A stretch of DNA of 64,000 nt from Aeromicrobium erythreum (GTDB taxonomy: Bacteria; Actinomycetota; Actinomycetes; Propionibacteriales; Nocardioidaceae). The notes under the pieces are model-generated. The model ran no database searches. It was not told where the DNA came from and saw only the letters and a list, made by a program, of their open reading frames with translations. Shown here piece by piece: positions 4,091-58,706 of this stretch. Positions within the stretch are counted from its first letter, which is position 1. Every line of letters starts with the position of its first letter. A program made the translations under genes and the position numbers. Location of the stretch: positions 2,108,001-2,172,000 of the forward strand of contig NZ_CP011502.1 in the NCBI RefSeq assembly GCF_001509405.1. Reading direction: 5' to 3'.

Positions 4091-5338
4091 TCAGGAGTCC
4101 CGCTGGCCCCACGGGGAGCCGTAGGCGGTGAGCAGCTCCAGGAACGGCACCGCGTCGAAGGCCTCGGGACCGAGCACGCCCGCCCCGCTCCAGGTGCCGT
4201 CGGCGAGCAGCTCGAGCGCGACTACGGGGTTCACGGCGGTCTGCCACACGACGCACTGGTGGCCGTACTCCTGCATCGCCCACTCGTTGTCGACGACGTG
4301 GTACAGGTACGTCTCGCGCTCCTGCCCGTCCTTGCCGATGCCGGTGACCCAGAGCCCGGCGCAGGTCTTGCCGGTCATGCGTGGGCCGATGGTCGCGGGG
4401 TCGGGCAGGCAGGCGGCGACGACGTCACGGGGCGAGACCTCGACGGGTCCGCCTGCCGACGGCACGCGGACGGGGGTGGTGCTGTCGAGCCCGACGTCGT
4501 GCAGGGCCTTGAGGACGTTGATGAAGTCCTCCCCCAGCCCGTACTTGAACGTCACCCGCTCGGCGTCGACCCAGCGCGGCATGAGGAGCACCTCCTCGTG
4601 CTCGACGTTGACGCACTCGACGGGCCCGATGCCCTCGGGGAAGTCGAACACCTCGGGCTCGGAGAACGGCGGCGTCACGAACCAGCCGCCGTCGGGCTCG
4701 TCGGCGCGCGCCTTCTCCCAGACGACGGGCGGGTTGAGGCACTCCTCGATCGTCGTCCAGATCGAGAAGGACGGCGCGAACACCTCGTTGCCGTGCTCGT
4801 CGTGCACCGCCAGGTTGGCGCCGTCGCGGGTGCCCAGGTCACGGATCTCGCTGAACAGGTGGTCGGCCGCGTACCGGGCGAACACGTCGGAGAGGCCAGG
4901 CTCCACGCCCATGCCGACGAGGGCGAGACGACCGGCCGACTCCCACTGGTCGGCGACGGCGAACTGGTCGTCGCCGAGCTTCTTCCCGACCTTCGCGTAG
5001 GGCTCCTCGGGGTGGCGCGTCGACAGCGACATCGCCATGTCGAGGTAGTCGGCGCCGGCGGCGAAGGCGCCGTCGAAGATCGACATGACGAACCGTGGGT
5101 CGACGGCGTTCATGACGTGGGTGACGTCGTGCTCACGGCACAGGGCCGCGACGTCGTCGGCCGACGACGCGTCGACGCGGGCTGCCACGAAGCGGTCGTC
5201 GTCGAGGGCGTCGACGGCGGCACGGGCGCGCGACTCGTCGTAGTCGGCGACGACCACGAGCTCGAAGAAGTCGCGACGTGCGGCGATGGCCGTGAAGGCG
5301 GCGCCGACGCCGCCGGAGCCGACCAGCAGGATCTTCAT
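4091..5338 (-). CDS. Saccharopine dehydrogenase-family oxidoreductase
   Basis: The 415-residue protein opens with a Rossmann NAD(P)-binding motif, LLVGSGGVGAAF (GxGGxG at 7-12), followed by the acidic ADYDESRA loop, and ends with the saccharopine dehydrogenase C-terminal fold. Enzymes of this group include saccharopine and lysine-6-dehydrogenases and carboxynorspermidine/homospermidine enzymes, so the exact substrate cannot be read from sequence. It follows the APC permease on the same strand with an 84-base gap and a purine-rich site (GAGGAGAGAC) before ATG 5338, so the two are probably co-transcribed. With the neighbouring aminotransferase and Lrp/AsnC regulator the context suggests lysine or polyamine breakdown (inference). 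Confidence 0.85.
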   Translation of the reverse strand: MKILLVGSGGVGAAFTAIAARRDFFELVVVADYDESRARAAVDALDDDRFVAARVDASSADDVAALCREHDVTHVMNAVDPRFVMSIFDGAFAAGADYLDMAMSLSTRHPEEPYAKVGKKLGDDQFAVADQWESAGRLALVGMGVEPGLSDVFARYAADHLFSEIRDLGTRDGANLAVHDEHGNEVFAPSFSIWTTIEECLNPPVVWEKARADEPDGGWFVTPPFSEPEVFDFPEGIGPVECVNVEHEEVLLMPRWVDAERVTFKYGLGEDFINVLKALHDVGLDSTTPVRVPSAGGPVEVSPRDVVAACLPDPATIGPRMTGKTCAGLWVTGIGKDGQERETYLYHVVDNEWAMQEYGHQCVVWQTAVNPVVALELLADGTWSGAGVLGPEAFDAVPFLELLTAYGSPWGQRDS

Positions 5339-5422
5339 GTCTCTCCTCGGAGGTGTCCCGGGTCGGGACGGTGTGCAGTGGTGGGGCGGGGTGGTGAGCA
5401 GGGGGCGGGGTGCGGCGACGAC

Positions 5423-6964
5423 TCAGTCGAGGGCCGCGCCGGGACGCGTCGGGCCGAGCGCCGCCAGCGCCACCTCGTCGGAGACGGTCTCGAAGCCCTT
5501 GCGCGTGAAGAAGGTGGCGCCGACGGTGAACCGCCAGACGACCATGAGCACGAGGCCGAGCACCAGGAAGACGACGGCGATGGCGAGCGGCAGCCCGACG
5601 CCGAGCACCGACGAGCCGCTGTAGGAGGCGCCCGGGTCGGAGAGGTCGAGCACGGACTCGTACAGGAGGTAGAACAGGGTGCCGGCGCCGACGAGCGGCC
5701 CCACGCCGATGAACAGGAACGCCTTGACCGACGTGAAGAGCCGCCGACGCCAGTAGATGGCGCACGCCAGTCCGGTGAGGCCGTAGTAGAAGGCGATCAT
5801 CAGCGACAGCGCCGAGATCGAGTCGAACAGGAAGTTGTCGCTGATCGCGCTCGCGCCGACGTACCATGCGATGGCCACGGCGCCGATGAACCACGTGCTG
5901 AACGACGGCGTCCCGTACCGCTCGTGGATGCGGGCGAACACCTTCGGGAACGCCCCGGCGCTCGCCATCGAGAGCGACACACGCGACGCGGGGAGGATGG
6001 TCGTCTGCGTCGAGGCGATGCCCGAGGTGATGATCGAGAGCAGCAGCACGAAGGCGAACGGACCCATGACGAGGTCGCCGACGGCACCGAACAGCGCGTC
6101 GTCGTCCTCGTAGCCGGTGACGAAGTCGACGCCTCCGGCGGCGATGGTCACGATCCCGACGCCCAGGTAGGTCGCGACGAGGATGACCGTGCTCCAGATG
6201 CCGGCGCGGCCGGGCGTGGTGTCGCCGTCGGTCGACTCCTCGGAGAGGTTCACCGCGCTCTCCCAGCCCCAATAGATGAAGACGCCGATGAGCAGGCCGC
6301 TGACGAGCTCGTGGGAGTCGAGTCCGGCGGGGCTGAGCCAGCTCCAGCTCGGCGTCGTCGCGCCGGCGGGCAGCGAGCCGGTCGCGAGCCGCACGGCGGC
6401 GACGCCGACGAAGAGGAGCAGCGCGCCGACCTGCGCGAAGACGAGCCAGACCTGGAACCTCGCCGACGCCTCGGTGCCGCGGACGCACAGCCACGTCATG
6501 ACGACGACGATGGCCACGGCGATCGTCACGACGACCGGGCGGTTGGCGGCCAGCGAGTCGGCGCCGACCATGACGAAGAGGTAGCGCGCGGCGACGTCGG
6601 CGAGGGAGCCGATCACCAGCACGCCGGTGGTGAAGACGGCCCAGCCGCCCATCCAGCCGATCCACGGGCCCATCGCGCGGGTGACCCACGAGAACGTGGT
6701 GCCGCAGTCGGTGTCGGCCCGGTTCATGTACAGGAACGCACCGGCGATGAGGAACATCGGCACGAACGACAGCCACAGCACCGCCGGGGCGTGGATGCCC
6801 GCCACCACCACCATCGAGCCGAGCACGGCGGCGATCGAGTACGCCGGTGCGGTCGCGTCGAGCCCGATCGACAGGCCTTCCCAGAAGCCGATCGCGTTGG
6901 CCTTCAGACCCTTGCTGCCCGTGGGGGCCACGTCGGCGGCTCCCGGTCCCACGTCCTGCGCCAT
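5423..6964 (-). CDS. APC-superfamily amino acid/polyamine permease
   Basis: The 513-residue protein is predominantly hydrophobic with about twelve membrane segments. The N-terminal FWEGLSIGLDATAPAYSIAAVLG and the GWESAVNLSEES segment near the middle are typical of APC transporters of amino acids and amines. A Shine-Dalgarno-like GGAGAGGAG precedes ATG 6964. It is divergent from the class III aminotransferase gene and is followed by the saccharopine-dehydrogenase-like gene, which suggests import of the substrate handled by those enzymes. Substrate specificity is not determined by the sequence. Confidence 0.9.
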   Translation of the reverse strand: MAQDVGPGAADVAPTGSKGLKANAIGFWEGLSIGLDATAPAYSIAAVLGSMVVVAGIHAPAVLWLSFVPMFLIAGAFLYMNRADTDCGTTFSWVTRAMGPWIGWMGGWAVFTTGVLVIGSLADVAARYLFVMVGADSLAANRPVVVTIAVAIVVVMTWLCVRGTEASARFQVWLVFAQVGALLLFVGVAAVRLATGSLPAGATTPSWSWLSPAGLDSHELVSGLLIGVFIYWGWESAVNLSEESTDGDTTPGRAGIWSTVILVATYLGVGIVTIAAGGVDFVTGYEDDDALFGAVGDLVMGPFAFVLLLSIITSGIASTQTTILPASRVSLSMASAGAFPKVFARIHERYGTPSFSTWFIGAVAIAWYVGASAISDNFLFDSISALSLMIAFYYGLTGLACAIYWRRRLFTSVKAFLFIGVGPLVGAGTLFYLLYESVLDLSDPGASYSGSSVLGVGLPLAIAVVFLVLGLVLMVVWRFTVGATFFTRKGFETVSDEVALAALGPTRPGAALD

Positions 6965-14169: not shown

Positions 14170-14195
14170 GGCCCCCGGCTCGAGAGCCGGGGGCC
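14170..14195 (-). terminator. 26-base perfect palindrome downstream of tRNA-Val(CAC)
   Basis: Twelve bases of GGCCCCCGGCTC mirror GAGCCGGGGGCC, forming a very stable hairpin ten bases past the 3' end of the tRNA. It is well placed to terminate the tRNA transcript before the YbaK promoter. Confidence 0.8.
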
Positions 14196-14205
14196 TGCGT
14201 GTCGG

Positions 14206-14277
14206 TGGGCGATACTGGGTTCGAACCAGTGACCTCTTCGGTGTGAACGAAGCGCGCTACCACTGCGCCAATCGCCC
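14206..14277 (-). tRNA. tRNA-Val (anticodon CAC)
   Basis: Read on the reverse strand, GGGCGAT pairs with ATCGCCC (7-bp acceptor), followed by discriminator A. The D arm is GGCGCAGTGGTAGCGC, the anticodon arm CTTCG-TTCACAC-CGAAG gives CAC, and the T arm contains GGTTCGAACC. CCA is not encoded. It is nearly identical to the tRNA-Val(GAC) at 15448 apart from the anticodon arm. Confidence 0.96.
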
Positions 14278-14318
14278 GGGGACGTCAGAACCTTACTCCA
14301 CCCCGTCTCGAGGTCGAG

Positions 14319-15418: not shown

Positions 15419-15447
15419 CGATCCCCCAACAGAACAGCACCACCCAC

Positions 15448-15519
15448 GGGCGATTGGCGCAGCGGTAGCGCGCTTCCCTGACACGGAAGAGGTCACTGGT
15501 TCAAACCCAGTATCGCCCA
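15448..15519 (+). tRNA. tRNA-Val (anticodon GAC)
   Basis: Acceptor GGGCGAT pairs with ATCGCCC; anticodon arm CTTCC-CTGACAC-GGAAG gives GAC; T loop GGTTCAAACC. A CCA follows discriminator A at 15520-15522, so the 3' end may be encoded. Confidence 0.96.
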
Positions 15520-15528
15520 CCACCAAGA

Positions 15529-15557
15529 AGCCCCGGAATCCCAAAGATTCCGGGGCT
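15529..15557 (+). terminator. Terminator after the Gly-Cys-Val tRNA cluster
   Basis: AGCCCCGGAATC and GATTCCGGGGCT form a 12-bp stem with a CCAAA loop, followed by CTTCTCG. It lies ten bases after tRNA-Val(GAC). Confidence 0.85.
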
Positions 15558-30186: not shown

Positions 30187-30609
30187 ATGAGCGACCAGGC
30201 GGGCAAGACCAGCTACGACGTCGAGAAGTCCAACGAGGAGTGGCGCGCCGAGCTGAGCGCCGCCGAGTACCACGTGCTCCGCGAGGCCGGCACCGAGCGG
30301 CCGTTCAGCTCCCCCTTCGAGACGGACCCGACGGAGGCCGTGTACGCCTGCCGCGCGTGCGGCTCCGAGCTGTTCCGCAGCGACACCAAGTTCGACGCGC
30401 ACTGCGGCTGGCCTGCCTTCTACGCCCCGCTCGCGGAGGACCGCGTCGAGTACATCGAGGACCGCTCGATGGGCATGCGTCGCGTCGAGGTCCGCTGCGC
30501 CACCTGCGGCTCCCACCTCGGCCACGTGTTCGAGGGCGAGGGCTTCCCCACCCCCACCGACCAGCGGTTCTGCATCAACGGCATCAGCCTCACCCAGGTC
30601 CCCGTCTGA
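30187..30609 (+). CDS. msrB: Peptide methionine-(R)-S-oxide reductase
   Basis: The 140-residue MsrB repairs oxidised methionine in proteins. Zinc is bound by CRAC and CATC pairs, GHVFEGEGF is the conserved core, and the catalytic Cys is in RFCINGISL. KFDAHCGWPAFYA is also conserved and provides a candidate resolving Cys. ATG 30187 is six bases after TAGGCT (30175-30180), predicting a leaderless transcript. The gene is followed by a palindromic repeat array. Confidence 0.97.
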   Translation: MSDQAGKTSYDVEKSNEEWRAELSAAEYHVLREAGTERPFSSPFETDPTEAVYACRACGSELFRSDTKFDAHCGWPAFYAPLAEDRVEYIEDRSMGMRRVEVRCATCGSHLGHVFEGEGFPTPTDQRFCINGISLTQVPV

Positions 30610-30629
30610 CCCCTCGGCAATCGGTGGGA

Positions 30630-30895
30630 GATTCCCAGGTGGACCTGGGAATCCGCGCCACGCATGGCTTGCTTCCCGTGCGTGGCTGAGATTTCCGTGC
30701 CTCGCTGGAGCTTCCGAGGTCGACCTCGGAATCGCTGCTACGCGCGGTGCACTTCCCGTGCCTTGCTGAGCTTCCCGTGCCCTGCGGGGAGACAACCCAG
30801 GTCGACCCGGAAATCTCAGCCACGCACGGCTTGCTCTCCGTGCGTGGCTGAGATTTCCGTGCCTCGCTGAAGATTCCCAGGTCGACCTGGGAATC
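30630..30895. repeat. Palindromic repeat array between convergent msrB and hemQ
   Basis: Two 77-base direct repeats (30657-30733 and 30819-30895, similar but not identical) each comprise a GCCACGCA/TGCGTGGC hairpin, the segment TGAGATTTCCGTGCCTCGCTG and a 24-base palindrome. A further palindrome stands at 30630-30653 (arms GATTCCCAGGT/ACCTGGGAATC), one at 30710-30733 (TTCCGAGGTC/GACCTCGGAA), a degenerate one at 30791-30815, and a perfect one at 30872-30895 centred on GGTCGACC. The array fills the intergenic space and ends five bases before the hemQ stop. It may act as a bidirectional terminator or as a REP-like element. Confidence 0.8.
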
Positions 30896-30900
30896 CCCGA

Positions 30901-31605
30901 TCAGGGCCAGAGCGCGGTGAGGTCGGCCGGGTCGTGGCGGCGGCCGGTGTAGAACGGGATCTCCTCGCGCACGTGGCGGCGGGCGGTGCTGGCGCGCAGG
31001 TCGCGCATGAGGTCGACGATGCGGTGCAGCTCGTCGGCCTCGAACGCCAGGATCCACTCGTAGTCGCCGAGCGCGAACGACGCGACCGTGTTGGCGCGGA
31101 CGTCGGGGTAGGGGCGGGCCTGCATGCCGTGCTCCTTGAGCATCGCGCGACGCTCCTCATCGGGCAGCAGGTACCACTCGTAGGAGCGGACGAACGGGTA
31201 CACGCAGACCCAGTCGCGCACGGTCTCGTCGGCCATGAACGCGGGCACGTGCGACTTGTTGAACTCCGCAGGACGGTGCAGGGCGGTCTGCGACCACACG
31301 GGCGCCATCCGCGAGCCCAGCGCGGTCCGCCGGAACGCGTTGTAGGCGGCCTGCAGCGCGTCGGCCGACGACGCGTGCCACCAGACCATGAGGTCGGCGT
31401 CGGCGCGCATGCCGCTGACGTCGTAGAAGCCGCGGACCACGACGTCCTCGTCGGCCAGACGCTTCACCAGGTCGTCGACCTCGGCGGCCTCCGCGGCACG
31501 GTCGGCGTCCCCGAGCACCCGCTCGAGCTTGAAGACCGACCACATCGTGTAGCGGATGGTCTCGTTGATCTCCTTGGCCAGCTTTCCCTGGTTCGGCACG
31601 CTCAT
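30901..31605 (-). CDS. hemQ: Coproheme decarboxylase HemQ (ChdC)
   Basis: The 234-residue protein belongs to the chlorite-dismutase-like family. It converts coproheme to protoheme by two oxidative decarboxylations, the last step of the coproporphyrin-dependent pathway. Segments [38 protein letters not shown] (with the tyrosine region used in catalysis) and [28 protein letters not shown] are characteristic. ATG 31605 starts [14 protein letters not shown]; the longer open frame lacks support. It is the third gene of a hemE-hemY-hemQ unit on this strand. Confidence 0.95.
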
Positions 31606-55721: not shown

Positions 55722-55951
55722 GGATTCCCATCACCTGAGGGGAATCCTCACTCACCTGCGGTTGATCCCGCCGGTGAGTGAGGAAGAACCATGGTGAGTG
55801 CCACCAGGCGCGATGCGCTCAGGCGCATCTCGACGGGCGGACGCGACCGGCCCGCTCACCACGGTCCTCCCCCGCTCACCTCGGGAAGCATCCGCAGGTG
55901 AGCGCGGGAGAACCATGGCGAGCTGCTGATTCCCATCAAGTGATGGGAATC
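55722..55951. repeat. Palindromic repeat cluster between the ligase and the GlxA/AraC gene
   Basis: Elements in order: a GGATTCCC/GGGAATCC palindrome (55722-55747); a hairpin TCACTCACC/GGTGAGTGA (55748-55756, 55773-55781) followed by GGAAGAACCATGGTGAGTG, in which the arm is repeated; a second hairpin CGCTCACC/GGTGAGCG (55873-55880, 55897-55904) followed by GGGAGAACCATGGCGAGC; and a 24-base palindrome with 11-base arms GATTCCCATCA/TGATGGGAATC (55928-55951). The outer GATTCCC/GGGAATC arms match the array at 30630-30895, though the centres differ. The cluster fills the space between convergent genes. Confidence 0.75.
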
Positions 55952-57260: not shown

Positions 57261-58706
57261 TCACTCGCCGCCCGTCAGCTTCTCGCGCAGGGCCTGCAGG
57301 GCCTCGTCGGACGCGAGCGAACCCTCGCCCGTCTCGACGTCGCCACCGGCGGAGTAGTTGCTGACCTCGCCGGCCTCGATGTTGGCCTTCTCGGCCTCCT
57401 CGATCTGCTTCTTGTGCGCCTCCCAGCGCTCGTGAGCCTCGGCGTACTGCTTCTCCCAGGCAGCGCGGGCCTCCTCGAAGCCCTCCTGCCACTCGCCGGT
57501 CTCCGGGTCGAAGCCGTCGGGGTAGATGTAGTTGCCCTGCTCGTCGTAGGAGGACGTCATGCCGTAGAGCGTCGGGTCGAAGTCGTCGGCCGCAGCGGCC
57601 TGCGTCTCGTTGGCCTGCTTGAGCGACAGCGAGATGCGACGACGCTCGAGGTCGATGTCGATGATCTTGACCATGACCGAGTCGCCGATCTGGACGACCT
57701 GCTCGGGGATCTCGACGTGACGCTCGGCCAGCTCGGAGATGTGCACGAGGCCCTCGATGCCCTCCTCGACGCGCACGAACGCACCGAACGGGACGAGCTT
57801 GGTGGCCTTGCCGGGCACGATCTGGCCGATCTGGTGGGTCCGGGCGAAGTGCTGCCACGGATCCTCCTGCGTCGCCTTGAGCGACAGCGACACGCGCTCG
57901 CGCTCGAGGTCGACGTCGAGCACCTCGACCGTGACCTCGTCGCCGACCTGGACGACCTCGTTCGGGTGGTCGATGTGCTTCCAGGACAGCTCGGAGACGT
58001 GGACGAGACCGTCGACGCCGCCGAGGTCGACGAACGCACCGAAGTTGACGATCGAGGAGATGACGCCCTTGCGGACCTGCCCCTTCTTGAGCTCGTCGAG
58101 GAACTTCTGGCGCACGGCCGACTGGGTCTGCTCGAGCCACGCACGGCGCGACAGGACCACGTTGTTGCGGTTCTTGTCGAGCTCGATGATCTTCGCCTCG
58201 AGCTTCTGGCCGATGTACGGGTCGAGGTCGCGCACGCGGCGCATCTCGACCAGCGACGCGGGCAGGAAGCCACGGAGTCCGATGTCCATGATGAGGCCGC
58301 CCTTGACGACCTCGATGACGGTGCCCTCGACGACGCCGTCCTCGGCCTTGATCTTCTCGATGTCGCCCCAGGCGCGCTCGTACTGGGCGCGCTTCTTGGA
58401 CAGGATCAGACGGCCTTCCTTGTCCTCCTTCTGGAGGACGAGGGCCTCGACGCTGTCACCGACGGCGACGACCTCGTGCGGGTCGACGTCGTGCTTGATG
58501 CTCAGCTCGCGCGAGGGGATGACGCCCTCGGTCTTGTAGCCGATGTCGAGGAGGACCTCGTCGCGGTCCACCTTGACGATGGTGCCGTCGACGATGTCGC
58601 CGTCGTTGAAGTACTTGATGGTCGAGTCGATGGCCGCGAGGAAGTCTTCCTCGGTGCCGATGTCGTTGACCGCAACCTGCGGTGCCGCAGAGGGTGCGAT
58701 GCTCAT
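57261..58706 (-). CDS. rpsA: 30S ribosomal protein S1
   Basis: The 481-residue protein has four S1 RNA-binding domains: about residues 35-105 (VDGTIVKVDRDEVLLDIGYKTEGVIPSREL), 120-188 (VEGTVIEVVKGGLIMDIG), 208-276 (RKGVISSIVNFGAFVDLGGVDGLVHVSELSW) and 293-362 (TKLVPFGAFVRVEEGIEGLVHISELA), as usual for actinobacteria, followed by an acidic, helical C-terminal tail. It helps mRNA reach the ribosome. ATG 58706 has CGGAG upstream. The predicted promoter is about 130 bases upstream, leaving a structured leader. The many predicted leaderless genes around it would not depend on classical S1 docking (inference). Confidence 0.98.
   Translation of the reverse strand: MSIAPSAAPQVAVNDIGTEEDFLAAIDSTIKYFNDGDIVDGTIVKVDRDEVLLDIGYKTEGVIPSRELSIKHDVDPHEVVAVGDSVEALVLQKEDKEGRLILSKKRAQYERAWGDIEKIKAEDGVVEGTVIEVVKGGLIMDIGLRGFLPASLVEMRRVRDLDPYIGQKLEAKIIELDKNRNNVVLSRRAWLEQTQSAVRQKFLDELKKGQVRKGVISSIVNFGAFVDLGGVDGLVHVSELSWKHIDHPNEVVQVGDEVTVEVLDVDLERERVSLSLKATQEDPWQHFARTHQIGQIVPGKATKLVPFGAFVRVEEGIEGLVHISELAERHVEIPEQVVQIGDSVMVKIIDIDLERRRISLSLKQANETQAAAADDFDPTLYGMTSSYDEQGNYIYPDGFDPETGEWQEGFEEARAAWEKQYAEAHERWEAHKKQIEEAEKANIEAGEVSNYSAGGDVETGEGSLASDEALQALREKLTGGE

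Follow-up and report, generated by a model that had tools for sequence, protein, structure and literature searches.

The 291-nt gap that separates the msrB and hemQ genes of the soil bacterium Aeromicrobium erythreum is occupied by an array of palindromes and hairpins, which raises the question of what kind of element this array represents and why it is situated where two genes end. The window analysed here comprises 64,000 nt (positions 2108001-2172000 of the 3,629,239-bp single-contig genome; short coordinates refer to window positions). A sequence-only reading had taken the flanking genes to be convergent msrB and hemQ, and profile searches agree: the upstream ORF (30187-30609, plus strand) carries a SelR domain (PF01641, E 1.7e-45) and the downstream ORF (30901-31605, minus strand) belongs to the chlorite-dismutase family (PF06778, E 2.5e-77). 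The tandem array between them (30630-30895) consists of about three units of 80-82 nt, each pairing a 24-bp palindrome (P) with a nested hairpin (H), and a fourth P closes the series.

The first palindrome, GATTCCCAGGTGGACCTGGGAATC (30630-30653), begins 20 nt past the msrB stop codon and is followed by a hairpin segment with the inner stem GCCACGCA/TGCGTGGC (30654-30709). The second palindrome, GCTTCCGAGGTCGACCTCGGAATC (30710-30733), is degenerate and includes a compensated change of a C-G to a G-C pair; its hairpin segment (30734-30790) is also degenerate, as is the third palindrome (30791-30815), the right end of which overlaps the start of the third hairpin (30808-30859). This last hairpin has a perfect 22-bp stem (30808-30829 / 30838-30859) with an 8-nt loop, and on its own is predicted to fold with -43.9 kcal/mol. 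The fourth palindrome (30872-30895) is perfect, and 5 nt separate it from the stop codon of hemQ. The general formula of these palindromes is GATTCCCAGGT-nn-ACCTGGGAATC (24 bp), and GATTCCCAGGTNNACCTGGGAATC was matched without mismatch at both 30630-30653 and 30872-30895, where 100 shuffles led us to expect 0 matches. All of the hairpins, palindromes and repeats described in the sequence-only reading were recovered, including the degenerate palindromes at 30710-30733 and 30791-30815, and the repeated unit architecture proved larger and more regular than first noted: three direct 80-nt copies (30627-30706, 30707-30786 and 30789-30868; spacing 80 and 82) precede the closing palindrome, the second and third being 74% and 81% identical to the copy at 30627-30706. 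The word GCACGG/CCGTGC of the outer stem of H recurs in its inner stem, which explains why a 3' arm had appeared to recur in degenerate form.

The predicted fold of the 291-nt region is very stable (-171 kcal/mol, z = -10.6 against shuffles). The accompanying claim that the array is neither a tRNA, a CRISPR nor a simple terminator also held, as tRNA models and Rfam families gave no match to the array, repeat searches gave no support for a CRISPR, and no U-tract terminator was found in it; the U-tract is likewise missing from the other copies that we read directly. No match was found among 72,556 plasmid records, which gives no indication of a plasmid origin.

Further copies are dispersed through the genome in several families, for which copy numbers derive from genome searches and context statistics from stretches fetched around the copies. 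A strict palindrome pattern allowing up to 3 mismatches gave 32 matches, of which ~30 belong to the family of the msrB-hemQ array (family A) and occupy ~17 places or gaps; the reversed control pattern had 0 matches in the genome. H co-occurs with P at family A places in blastn searches. Direct reading of the sequence around P in every copy gave the edge (GG)A-GATTCCC / GGGAATC-T(CC). P is its own reverse complement, and at other loci H is found in either orientation with respect to P; the units at 30627-30868 of the array follow each other in direct order. A sister family (B), with the palindrome GATTCCCATCA-nn-TGATGGGAATC and a CTCACC/GGTGAG hairpin, occupies ~11 gaps. One of its elements, not noted in the sequence-only reading, lies in a second convergent gap of the window (55723-55951), where the palindrome GATTCCCATCACCTGAGGGGAATC (55723-55746) is followed by the hairpin CTCACTCACC / GGTGAGTGAG (55747-55783), a second, nested hairpin of the form GCTCAC..GCTCACC / GGTGAGC..GCGAGC (55854-55923) and the palindrome GATTCCCATCAAGTGATGGGAATC (55928-55951). 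Family T (GTTTGCGTGGGGCCCCACGCAAAC; unit of 61 bp) has 52 palindromes in ~25 gaps, including arrays with 61-bp spacing, and shares with A and B a palindrome-hairpin-palindrome architecture and no common core; examples are found at G000:C1:111926-112008, 438242-438324 and 3435996-3436200 (L298, L304 and L314), and none of the listed copies falls inside the window.

The window also holds two repeats of other kinds. A 91-nt inverted repeat (14191-14281 and 15444-15534) has copies that are 87% complementary and 1162 nt apart, and a 144-nt direct repeat (57618-57761 and 57876-58019; 76% identical) lies inside one predicted minus-strand gene (57261-58706) and probably reflects internal protein domain repeats.

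The placement of the repeats relative to genes is strongly biased. Using a purpose-written codon-usage gene caller, we found every scored palindrome of families A and B, in A. erythreum as in a second complete Aeromicrobium genome (G018), to be intergenic, typically 10-20 nt past a stop codon (the nearest stop lies a median of 13 nt from P). Gaps with A or B elements in these two genomes (n=55) comprise 29 convergent, 21 tandem and 5 divergent gaps, against 9, 73 and 55 among the other gaps of >=100 nt in the same stretches (n=137; Fisher p 6e-12), a comparison in which the background is drawn from fetched stretches, the elements lengthen their own gaps and some gaps are orthologous across the two species. 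The element is closer to the 3' end of the upstream gene in 19 of the 21 tandem gaps. One gap that is tandem in A. erythreum (L059) is convergent in Aeromicrobium sp. CnD17-E (G028; L107) and in the species of G061 (MAG, L110), the gene after the element being missing in A. erythreum. Family T has the same bias (15 convergent, 9 tandem and 1 divergent, against a background of 5, 38 and 28; p 2e-7), as do four further families of congeners introduced below (D-G), most of which begin within 1-20 nt of a preceding stop codon (58 gaps: 33, 22 and 3, against 10, 67 and 71; p 4e-14). Folding follows the same division, with a median z of -9.3 in element gaps of A. erythreum versus -2.0 in convergent gaps without an element. 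Neither outcome named earlier as refuting, a lack of further copies or their random distribution in coding and promoter regions, was seen: the genome has ~30 further palindromes of this type, with all scored copies intergenic and convergent gaps strongly over-represented.

Between species, P is conserved more tightly than neighbouring coding DNA. Across 13 orthologous gaps compared with G028, identity was 96.8% in coding ends, 86.6% in the rest of the gap and 98.7% in the outer arms of P; in the comparison with a MAG of the G061 species the corresponding values were 95.8%, 87.0% and 99.6%. In a set of 105 A, 50 B and 50 T palindromes, hardly any variation is seen in the core (TTCCCA/TGGGAA, symmetric, in A and B) and changes at the edges are symmetric on both sides, with covariation at position 0 in A (z 5.2), positions -1 and 2 in B (z 4.5 and 3.2) and position 5 in T (z 3.0); H contains three covarying pairs (z 5.2, 3.9 and 2.8). 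In one orthologous palindrome (L170), for example, the GATTCCC/GGGAATC of A. erythreum corresponds to GGTTCCC/GGGAACC in both G028 and G061. Symmetric changes of this kind fit selection on a hairpin, but they also fit template-switch repair of quasi-palindromes, and therefore are not proof of a function in RNA.

The repeats have a narrow distribution. The 24-mer P pattern was present in 4 of 395 genomes of the class Actinomycetes, all four of them Aeromicrobium, with no occurrence among the sampled genera of the class outside Aeromicrobium, and a wide spread in the Actinomycetes can thus be dismissed. A search of a contig collection found it only in Aeromicrobium and in one MAG labelled Propionibacteriales, which has exactly the msrB-hemQ gap of G061; on the basis of such identity, G061 and MAG LacPavin_0920 MAG_72_22 were treated as one species. 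P is missing entirely from many congeners, and two have variants that share only its outer arms (G015, GGC..GCC; G011, GG-AGAA-CC). Other Aeromicrobium species carry unrelated long hairpins in the msrB-hemQ gap, such that relatives have A, B or one of the four unrelated families D-G there. Each of D-G is a dispersed repeat in its own genomes, and searches with four of the gap hairpins found none of them in A. erythreum.

Comparison of orthologous gaps revealed turnover on two levels. The number of units in the msrB-hemQ gap is 3 in A. erythreum, 2 in G028 and 1 in G061, and the locus at 55.7 kb in the window has a P-H-H-P arrangement in two species and a single P in G061, where the sequences on its two sides agree with those that border the array; a like pattern was seen at L172 and L054. 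The differences in unit number are consistent with recombination between P palindromes. On the second level, whole families replace each other: three gaps with A in A. erythreum (L057, L068 and msrB-hemQ) hold B in G018, the replacement is reversed at L070, and both are present in G018 at L058. By a rough estimate that treats 13 A and 9 B convergent gaps as independent draws from roughly 700 convergent gaps, ~0.2 such coincidences would be expected, versus 3-4 observed. Palindromes at L070 are chimeras of a B half and an A half, and the P of L173, which is of B type in A. erythreum, carries A-type inner arms in G028. Unit number aside, the three closest species agree in their family A positions at every gap that could be compared, so that no recent family A insertion was seen; a clean empty site with target duplication was not found at the loci compared, including 12 further loci in three species, where intergenic divergence outside P is high. 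As related species hold unrelated hairpin repeats in the same gaps, the repeats look like interchangeable gene-end cassettes. Six stretches of G018 (L079, L180, L176, L185, L236 and L260) contain further long hairpins resembling extra repeat families, such as GGAGGTAGGTCTCGCACCTC.., at a gap with family A in A. erythreum, and TTCCACCGTCTCAGC..GCTGAGACGGTGG.

The location, structure and turnover of the repeats were observed directly, and the explanation that we favor, with somewhat better than even confidence, is that they are non-coding, BIME-like repeats without a RAYT that are retained as bidirectional 3'-end hairpins, acting in termination or in protection of mRNA ends. Transcribed from either side, an element would form the last structure of both transcripts, and its hairpins would halt RNA polymerase, block 3' exonucleases, or both, presumably to some advantage of the host. 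Any family with the P/H architecture could serve in this way, such that one family would give way to another without leaving the gap empty; copies may spread by a non-RAYT enzyme or by recombination or gene conversion, and the near-invariant core of P may be the recognition site of a mobiliser or of a host protein. This explanation is favored by the dispersal of the repeats, the convergent excess in A/B, D-G and T, the stability of the folds, the conservation of P, the covariation, the mutual replacement of A and B and the changes in unit number. Against it stand the missing U-tract, the 5 of 55 A/B gaps that are divergent, and the presence in some gaps (L062 and L063) of ordinary terminator-like hairpins, which would make the element unnecessary there. 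A terminator, moreover, requires structure only and leaves the invariant core of P unexplained; on sequence grounds this core suggests a sequence-specific partner, whether host protein or mobiliser, of which a pure terminator would have no need.

One may postulate instead that the repeats are selfish or neutral non-autonomous elements of a MITE- or REP-like kind that target gene 3' ends or existing hairpins, have no function and are tolerated in 3' gaps, their mobilising enzyme being lost or of an unrecognised type. We consider this a genuine possibility, if not a probable one: the restriction of dispersed families to one genus, the presence of several unrelated families per genome, the occupation of the same gap by different families in different species and the presence of copies in a few divergent gaps as well would all be expected, whereas the absence of both a Y1/RAYT gene and an empty site with target duplication at the compared loci speaks against it, as do the family A positions common to the three closest species, which indicate no recent movement; conservation of P above that of coding DNA is unexpected for neutral copies unless conversion homogenises them. 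A transposase of the RAYT/Y1_Tnp type (PF01797) was absent from A. erythreum, G018, G061, G028, G011, G015 and G007, with positive controls, and no GTAG/CGTC tag was found at the ends of P in any copy read. The RAYT was accordingly rejected as mobiliser, PF01797 being missing in every carrier genome tested. RAYT genes are typically flanked by elements in an inverted layout, and between uvrC and uvrA (L061) an AbiEi_4-domain gene (5273-6256) is flanked by two inverted family A elements (5079-6351), the flanking elements and the size of the gap being kept in four species. Because of this shared layout we weighed the AbiEi_4 gene as a mobiliser, and rejected it because the one domain detected in it is of an antitoxin-type regulator. 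The suggestion in the sequence-only reading that the array might be a mobile REP-like element therefore stands insofar as the element resembles REPs in its dispersal and its place at 3' ends; it is not supported in the strict sense of a mobile REP, as RAYT/Y1 is absent from the carriers tested, the GTAG/CGTC tag is missing and no clean insertion with target duplication was seen. Rather doubtful, in our estimation, is a broader proposal in which a general RAYT-independent mechanism of Aeromicrobium, either an unrecognised enzyme or replication-based amplification, repeatedly makes and spreads families built on one plan and brings them to the 3' ends of genes, so that unrelated sequences succeed each other at the same gene pairs as an analogue of REP/BIME that supplies bidirectional transcript ends.

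The remaining alternatives give less weight to the hairpin as such. P could be the putative site at which a dimeric protein with a nucleoid, chromosome-organising or regulatory role binds sequence-specifically, with 3' placement merely avoiding promoters and genes and H serving as a spacer or co-element; the symmetric core TTCCCA/TGGGAA of A and B, the outer arms common to A, B and the G015 and G011 variants, and the conservation of P above coding sequence point in this direction. We nevertheless judge it unlikely, given that the centre in G011 is a non-symmetric AGAA and centre bases are free to vary as in a hairpin loop, that T and D-G occupy the same kind of gap with other cores, and that P is wholly missing in many congeners. 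Template switching at quasi-palindromes is an established class of mutation (PMC7202029), and imperfect 3'-end inverted repeats perfected in this way and homogenised by gene conversion, with no functional selection, could account for the chimeric palindromes at L070, the inner-arm switch at L173 and the symmetric edge changes; such an origin is quite improbable, however, since it leaves unexplained that one sequence recurs at tens of sites, that unit lengths are fixed (80-82 and 61 bp) and that the elements sit at 3' ends. In Haemophilus influenzae, inverted pairs of DNA uptake words form 3'-end terminators (PMC5217627), a precedent for reading the palindromes as uptake words paired at gene ends. 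This we regard as highly improbable: all 7 GATTCCCA words in the window sit in a perfect or slightly degenerate P, and the lack of any single word in the window disfavors an identity as uptake sequence; no scored element P lies inside a gene.

Structures at gene ends are usually regarded as individually evolved, whereas in Aeromicrobium the flanking genes remain unmoved and unrelated hairpin cassettes occupy, and swap places in, the convergent gaps between them. Two questions are thereby made testable, namely how palindromic repeats spread without a RAYT and whether they are retained for the ending or protection of transcripts, and the msrB-hemQ locus, with 1, 2 and 3 units in close relatives, provides a natural allelic series. 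Since A. erythreum makes erythromycin, bidirectional 3'-end parts of this strength might, should they be confirmed, also be of practical use.

Modular hairpin repeats in intergenic DNA are well represented by BOX, ERIC and NEMIS elements, the number of inner modules being variable in BOX; the likeness considered here is one of architecture, and the Aeromicrobium unit is set apart by its make-up of P and H. REP and BIME elements are found in enterobacteria, Pseudomonas and Stenotrophomonas and fall into GTAG and CGTC super-families (PMC3733652, PMC2817692), the CGTC REPs also being without a known transposase (PMC3733652). The Aeromicrobium repeats are like them in forming dispersed intergenic palindromes and fixed-spacing arrays, in the presence of several families per genome and in favoring gaps past gene ends, convergent or unidirectional; they differ in having neither a RAYT nor a GTAG/CGTC tag, in numbering tens of copies, where REPs usually exceed 100 per genome (PMC2817692), in the perfect dyad symmetry of P, and in the swapping of unrelated families at orthologous gaps. 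Because RAYT, tag and high copy number all fail, we do not file these repeats as REPs and consider them REP-like in working at most. Stem-loop families at 3' ends without a known transposase are on record from several genera and include Bor, Ype and Efa (PMC1590033) as well as palindromic spaced motifs (PMC5217627). Families of this type similarly consist of repeated stem-loops near 3' ends, often between convergent genes, for which transcript ending or stabilising has been proposed, whereas the Aeromicrobium units are composite (P with nested H), tandem and turn over at the same gap between species. With respect to intrinsic terminators, a stable G+C-rich stem-loop shortly past the stop codon is present (median 13 nt) and a U-tract is not. 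An actinomycete parallel is the TRIT, a model of repeated intrinsic bidirectional terminators in M. tuberculosis (Gardner et al. 2011, as cited in PMC3526491); a stable hairpin within ~20 nt of stop codons is a shared feature, while the absence of a U-tract, the much longer stems, the array and the invariant core set the Aeromicrobium element apart from intrinsic terminators in general. Our literature search found no description of such repeats in Aeromicrobium, which is weak evidence of novelty given its partial coverage. What is unusual here is that a single genus has so many unrelated families and that these succeed one another in the same gaps.
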